Source: Euryarchaeota archaeon SM23-78 (GTDB taxonomy: Archaea > Nanobdellota > Nanobdellia > Woesearchaeales > SM23-78). Taken from it: a stretch of 64,000 nt of DNA. Position numbers and translations under genes: made by a program. The stretch covers positions 1 through 64,000 of the forward strand of contig LSSJ01000043.1 in the NCBI GenBank assembly GCA_001595785.1, given 5' to 3'. Of this stretch, positions 29,036 to 32,140 are shown in pieces (position 1 is the stretch's first letter; every line of letters starts with the position of its first letter). The notes under the pieces are model-generated. The model saw nothing but the letters and a program-made list of their open reading frames with translations, did not search any database and was not told the DNA's origin.

Positions 29036-29101
29036 GCAAGGCATCCATTAGGTTTTTGGTGACAAAGACCAGCAAAATCTGAGGATGCAGATATTCATGA
29101 T

Positions 29102-29227
29102 GTTGAAAAGTTATCCTACTCCGCTTTGCTCGCAAAAGTTCGCAAAGCTCCGCCTGGCCATGCCATTATTGCCTCATTGCATTCGGCAATAAATGCCAAT
29201 AATGGCACAGACGGCTATCTTTTCAAC
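29102..29227 (+). ncRNA. Candidate structured element, copy 1
   Basis: Outer arms GTTGAAAAGTTATCC/GGCTATCTTTTCAAC; core TACTCCGCTTTGCTCGCAAAAGTTCGCAAAGCTCCGCC shared with 32022-32135; inner stem TGCCATTATTG/CAATAATGGCA. Confidence 0.6.
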
Positions 29228-31956: not shown

Positions 31957-32021
31957 AAAATTACCTCAATTTTATGCCTCAAAAACATTTTTGTTTTTGT
32001 TGGCATTTTTTTCTTTTTTTA

Positions 32022-32135
32022 GTTTGCGCGACCGTCGTTGCCTGCAGATGCAACAACACCTTTTTTGGTGTTTTGCATGGCACGGCGGAGCTTTTGCGAA
32101 CTTTTGCGAGCAAAAGCGGAGTAGGGCGCGCAAAC
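32022..32135 (-). ncRNA. Candidate structured element, copy 2 (in pheS-pheT spacer)
   Basis: Minus strand arms GTTTGCGCGCC/GGTCGCGCAAAC; core TACTCCGCTTTTGCTCGCAAAAGTTCGCAAAAGCTCCGCC; inner hairpin ATGCAAAACACC-AAAAAA-GGTGTTGTTGCAT. Confidence 0.6.
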
Positions 32136-32140
32136 TGTTA

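Follow-up and report, generated by a model that had tools for sequence, protein, structure and literature searches.

The question raised by this locus is what kind of element occupies the spacer between eL34 and eL14 in the archaeon SM23-78 (Woesearchaeales), within a window (the whole stretch of DNA that was analysed) of 64,000 nucleotides. An earlier note, made from the sequence alone, described a 126-nt structured element here with a second copy between pheS and pheT, and listed a riboswitch-like leader, an ncRNA and a structured mobile repeat among the options. We consider the most probable answer, with a probability of roughly 0.8, to be that this copy is old and no longer mobile, and that it belongs to a family of MITE-like non-autonomous transposons found in Woesearchaeota. 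Copy 1 was found exactly where the note had placed it. Copy 2 is also present, but its ends lie at 32021-32136 on the minus strand and not at 32022-32135. The features of the two copies are as follows.

29102..29227, plus strand: copy 1, whole element, in the eL34-eL14 spacer, written in the orientation with TACTC 5'; the minus-strand fold is the more stable
29102..29116, plus strand: P1 5' arm of copy 1, GTTGAAAAGTTATCC; 13 of 15 positions pair with the 3' arm
29117..29122, plus strand: conserved junction TACTCC (complement GGAGTA); column frequencies T100 A93 C83 T98 C72 C70
29123..29148, plus strand: P2 hairpin GCTTTGC-N12-GCAAAGC; 94% of cells paired across 10 copies, 88% across 61 copies
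29149..29151, plus strand: P2-P3 junction TCC, from alignment columns
29152..29212, plus strand: P3 hairpin GCCTGGCC...GGCACAGAC; the GCC/GGC pairs hardly vary, the apical part does
29213..29227, plus strand: P1 3' arm of copy 1, GGCTATCTTTTCAAC, pairing with GTTGAAAAGTTATCC
32021..32136, minus strand: the whole of copy 2, between pheS and pheT, with AGTTTGCGCGCCC / GGTCGCGCAAACT as its P1 arms

In the orientation that has TACTC 5', the element consists of a P1 arm, CC, TACTCC, the P2 hairpin, TCC, the P3 hairpin, GG, and the second P1 arm. The two window copies share a near-identical core (92% identity over ~50 nt) in which both sides of the core stem change together, and their outer arms are completely different between copies and paired within each, all as the earlier note had described. 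In a 61-copy alignment (A4), P2 and P3 retain conserved bases with variable tips, and the letters T10, C177, G286, G305, C307, and G308 are invariant or nearly so. The sequence of P1 varies among copies of the window's genome, and the arms pair internally in nearly every copy. The precise limits of the junction are uncertain, since pairing is comparatively inconsistent at the two innermost pairs of P1, above all in a second alignment (A5; 50 copies, drawn mostly from other genomes), and since on the folded strand the CC has the GG of P3 as an alternative partner.

Both window copies, on both strands, folded better than all 200 dinucleotide shuffles (z -3.7 to -6.0). Strong covariation was found in all three stems. 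In A4, 87.9% of cells were paired, with 318 double-sided pair changes against 100 ± 7 in shuffles and a covariation score of 0.47 against 0.03–0.10 in slid controls; in A5 the corresponding values were 87.5%, 262 against 79, and 0.52 against at most 0.14, although A4 and A5 had each been fitted to a model carrying the same structure, so that the counts lean towards it, and copies within one genome are related, so that the changes are not independent events. The pairing of the arms was also read straight from the sequence, independently of the model-fitted alignments. Compensated arms are seen at orthologous sites too, most clearly at L051/L092, where the 3' arm changes to match (GGCTCTTTC / GGCTTTTTC).

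To determine the extent of the family, a covariance model built from 10 copies (R1) and a second built from 61 (R2) were used. The genome-wide search with R1, of the kind that the earlier note had called for, returned 23 places in the element's own genome (best E 1e-28), and further copies also turn up with copy 1 as the query. Among relatives, R1 found the family in 10 of 58 genomes, own genome not counted, and across the order R2 found it in 32 of 353. No Rfam covariance model matches the element at the gathering score. Searched against named genomes, the pattern of one subfamily matched only Woesearchaeota records and one Nanoarchaeota record, while its core pattern had no match among viral contigs, which says little about the remaining family. 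The claim of a multi-copy, covarying structured family of no recognised class is thus borne out, and the element is short, multi-copy, and intergenic, as MITEs are.

Evidence for mobility comes from other genomes. Terminal inverted repeats are common to the copies in G045, G041, G219, G332, and G349; in G045 both ends of six copies carry GACATTGTTTACTTATCG, little altered, and the copies of G041 have GGCGTTATTGAAAAGTTA in common. Other ends are equally lineage-specific: GGGCTGCGTTGAAAAAG in G332, GGCTCTGATGAAATCCTG in G144, GGCTAATATGAAACCCTA in G219, GGTGCTGTCAACTTAAG in G173, and GGCACTGTCAACTTTGTTGTGCAAG in G349. With a search range matched to the arm ends, and outside the genus of the window, 21 of 69 copies had exact 8-bp direct repeats there, where 0.73 were expected (nominal p 6e-25). 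A first set of 71 copies had shown direct repeats of score at least 8 in 4 of 9 G045 and 3 of 8 G041 copies, where chance would give 1.7%. The earlier note had set a MITE with identical terminal inverted repeats against a structured RNA family; terminal repeats shared between copies, together with target-site duplications, are what the relatives display, and they support its option of a structured mobile repeat. Inspection of the printed arms by eye places the outer repeat apart from P1 in G045 L119, G055, G232, G254, G271, and G349, and we therefore treat P1 and the terminal repeat as separable layers. The core is constant throughout while the ends differ by lineage, which underlies our view that ends have been exchanged. 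Such a constant three-way-junction core, held across lineages with differing terminal repeats, is unusual for a miniature transposon.

The position of insertion is also non-uniform. Outside the genus, the distance from element edge to start codon peaks at 40–49 bp (24 of 86, from several genomes), and in the 27 cases that were aligned the TATA-like motif TTTWTA occupies positions -30 to -23 relative to the ATG. This clustering, 40–50 bp upstream of start codons and just outside the TATA box, occurs on either side of the element (G041, G332, G219, G045). It fits insertion immediately outside leaderless promoters, and purifying selection against insertions nearer to genes could contribute. Copies are oriented at random with respect to the adjacent genes (21 ++, 25 --, 15 divergent, 7 convergent). 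We therefore do not regard it as a gene leader, and the suggestion of a riboswitch-like leader or operon-linked ncRNA finds no support. A transcription terminator was also considered; the convergent-gene sites are rarer than the divergent ones, which argues against it.

Within the window's genus, an exact 8-bp repeat remains in 2 of 48 copies against 0.5 expected, so the case for mobility of the two copies in the window is made through their relatives. Most G000 copies lack common terminal repeats, and their arms differ. Two bridge copies connect the genus with the mobile form through their tips and repeats: G001 L110, with tips GGCACTGTTCA / GGGGCTGCGTTCAA and an 8/8 direct repeat, and G000 L018, with the same GGGGCTGCGTTCAA tip and a direct repeat of 7/8. 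The inner half of the G144 end matches G000 arms, for example AGAAATCCTG. Empty orthologous sites were found at the eL34-eL14 spacer in G001-G005 and at an EndoIV-like site in G001 and G003; they hold neither element nor palindrome, which rules out insertion into a pre-existing palindrome. Given the tips and duplications mostly lost in the genus, the bridge copies, and the empty eL34-eL14 spacers, copies 1 and 2 are taken as old insertions; they look like old relics with decayed outer ends that presumably arrived by transposition. That the decayed copies retain their pairing is contrary to the prediction for a dead MITE. P3 is identical at two G006 sites (L104 2460-2566 and L105 2454-2561), and the orthologous G004 sites (L091, L088) carry other forms, a hint of core exchange within a genome. 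Concerted evolution of cores within genomes, which this would suggest, is not claimed, as overall identity does not tell pairs from one genome apart from pairs at one site.

We propose that in a mobile copy, terminal inverted repeats (~15–25 bp, with tips like GG(C/G)NCTGT) would flank a conserved core of ~80–100 nt, which is predicted to fold, best on one strand, as a three-way junction of P1, P2, and P3. An IS6-like transposase acting in trans, suggested by the 8-bp duplication and the tips, would move the element into AT-rich DNA immediately beyond the promoter TATA box, ~40–50 bp upstream of start codons. The terminal repeat doubles as P1 in some lineages and lies outside a separate P1 in others, and the same core carries lineage-dependent terminal repeats. 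In a probable later stage, seen in the window's genus, outer tips and target duplications have mostly decayed with P1, P2, and P3 staying paired, and a single-stranded form of the core may be what matters. Directly observed in this scheme are the copies, their structure and covariation, the target duplications, the site of insertion, and the differing ends on one core; the transposase family, the sequence of events, and a role for single-stranded core are inferred.

The arm tips are GGCNCTGT-like and resemble GG(C/G)NCTGT. GG tips with CTGT occur in G349, G173, and G001, with a near form in G254 and incomplete forms in G219 (GGCTAATATG) and G045 (GACATTGTT). IS6 elements have 8-bp direct repeats, GG tips, and cTGTt/caaa motifs (PMC7986276), and it is from duplication length and tip resemblance that we make the putative IS6-like assignment. 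The search for a partner by family covered one transposase family, PF13610, in draft assemblies: it was not found in those of G000, G004, G006, G045, G332, and G219, and its matches in G041 and G144 lack ends matching the element, so that among the genomes searched for PF13610 no same-genome IS6 transposase qualified as the partner. Scans of G045 and G332 with terminal-repeat patterns returned solely element copies, halves, and unrelated sites, with no autonomous element, and we accordingly infer the mobilising enzyme. A related IS6-like transposase gene is present in two genera (L155 1387-2283 in G041 and L220 1045-1989 in G144); no terminal repeats were recognised around either gene, and they are perhaps domesticated.

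Comparison with known systems places the family closest to several at once. Like prokaryotic MITEs (Sulfolobus SM1-SM4, ERIC, MITEAba12; PMC10969869), it is short, multi-copy, and intergenic, with terminal inverted repeats, direct repeats, and a stable secondary structure, and it has no coding content as judged by ORF calling around the copies. Unlike them, it has a junction-forming core that is conserved among elements whose terminal repeats differ, and one strand folds better. It shares with IS6/IS26 (PMC7986276, PMC6807381) the 8-bp target duplication and, in several genomes, GG(C/G)NCTGT-like tips; however, the two IS6 MITEs listed there measure 227 and 336 bp against ~100 bases here, and no transposase-bearing element with matching ends was found. 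The literature on Woesearchaeota MITEs and structured mobile repeats, as far as it was covered, contains no description of this element family, and mobile elements of this host group are little described in what we found. MITEs are regarded as mainly IS-derived (PMC10969869). If the MITE-like reading is true, a core shared by elements with different ends means that they need not be mere shrunken IS ends and that it can be the inner part that endures. The family's insertions also fall within a narrow range of distances upstream of archaeal promoters, so that one could test directly whether the archaeal transcription machinery guides the targeting of transposons.

What keeps the arms paired is a further question. 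One unlikely but live alternative is that the covariation is mutational: polymerase template switching between the inverted-repeat arms would homogenise them, letting their sequence drift while they remain complementary, with no selection on a single-stranded form. The outer five P1 pairs of A4 comprise 299 Watson-Crick pairs and no G.T, and because the arms in the window's genus covary in this Watson-Crick-only manner, homogenisation at the DNA level competes with RNA selection. It would account for the compensated arm difference at the occupied orthologous site L051/L092, and template switching is on record as a process that homogenises short inverted repeats (PMC8604942). Yet P1 pair 3 is non-standard in 45 of the 61 A4 copies, chiefly C.T, and such a pyrimidine-pyrimidine mismatch should have been corrected; the near-invariant junction letters and the strand bias of wobbles and fold energy are likewise unexpected, and spacers of 80–100 nt are long for such a process.

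That strand bias bears on a second alternative, which we judge rather improbable, in which the core on the strand complementary to the written one is a functional RNA of benefit to element or host, RNA-level selection keeps the junction, and transposition only spread it. In 115 of 121 copies the more stable fold is that of the complementary strand, which at copy 1 is the minus strand (mean -53.1 against -44.6 kcal/mol for the written strand), so the earlier note had written the poorer folder. A.C mismatches are more frequent than G.T mismatches, with 62 against 11 in A4 and 77 against 19 in A5 (139 against 30 summed, uncorrected for shared ancestry), an excess that fits folding of the complementary strand, where A.C reads as G.U wobble. 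The retained pairing of old copies and the non-standard P1 pair 3 also favour this alternative. Against it, neighbouring promoters would transcribe either strand given the random orientation, and the outer five P1 pairs of A4 hold no G.T where a small control of just 8 tRNAs had 12 G.U in 166 pairs. Both RNA-level and DNA-level readings of the folded form are compatible with the strand data. It is more doubtful again, though conceivable, that the selfish unit proper is the core itself, a folded RNA or ssDNA domain specific to one strand that persists while it swaps terminal repeats according to the available transposase and aids its own mobilisation or promoter-proximal targeting, much as SINEs keep the head and change tails.

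A REP/REPIN-like single-stranded DNA element (PMC3733652, PMC3116915) moved by a tyrosine (HUH) transposase is very improbable: such elements are also dispersed palindromic intergenic DNA with imperfect hairpins structured on one strand, and GTAG and CGTC strings like the tags that mark bacterial REPs (PMC3733652) adjoin the junction on the folded strand, but the CGTC string is itself paired or adjoins pairs and forms no unpaired tag, the family differs in target duplication, terminal repeats, and size, and its 8-bp duplications and GG-tipped repeats point to a DDE transposase.

Finally, a second candidate structured RNA was observed in the same eL34-eL14 spacer at ~29038-29098, a hairpin GGCATCC...GGTTTTTGGTGACAAAGACC...CTGAGGATGC with a conserved GGYGAC loop. 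A similar sequence is present in this spacer in G001, G002, G004, and G005, and its stem letters vary by species (for example GCATCC/GGATGC versus GCATCTG/CAGATGC).
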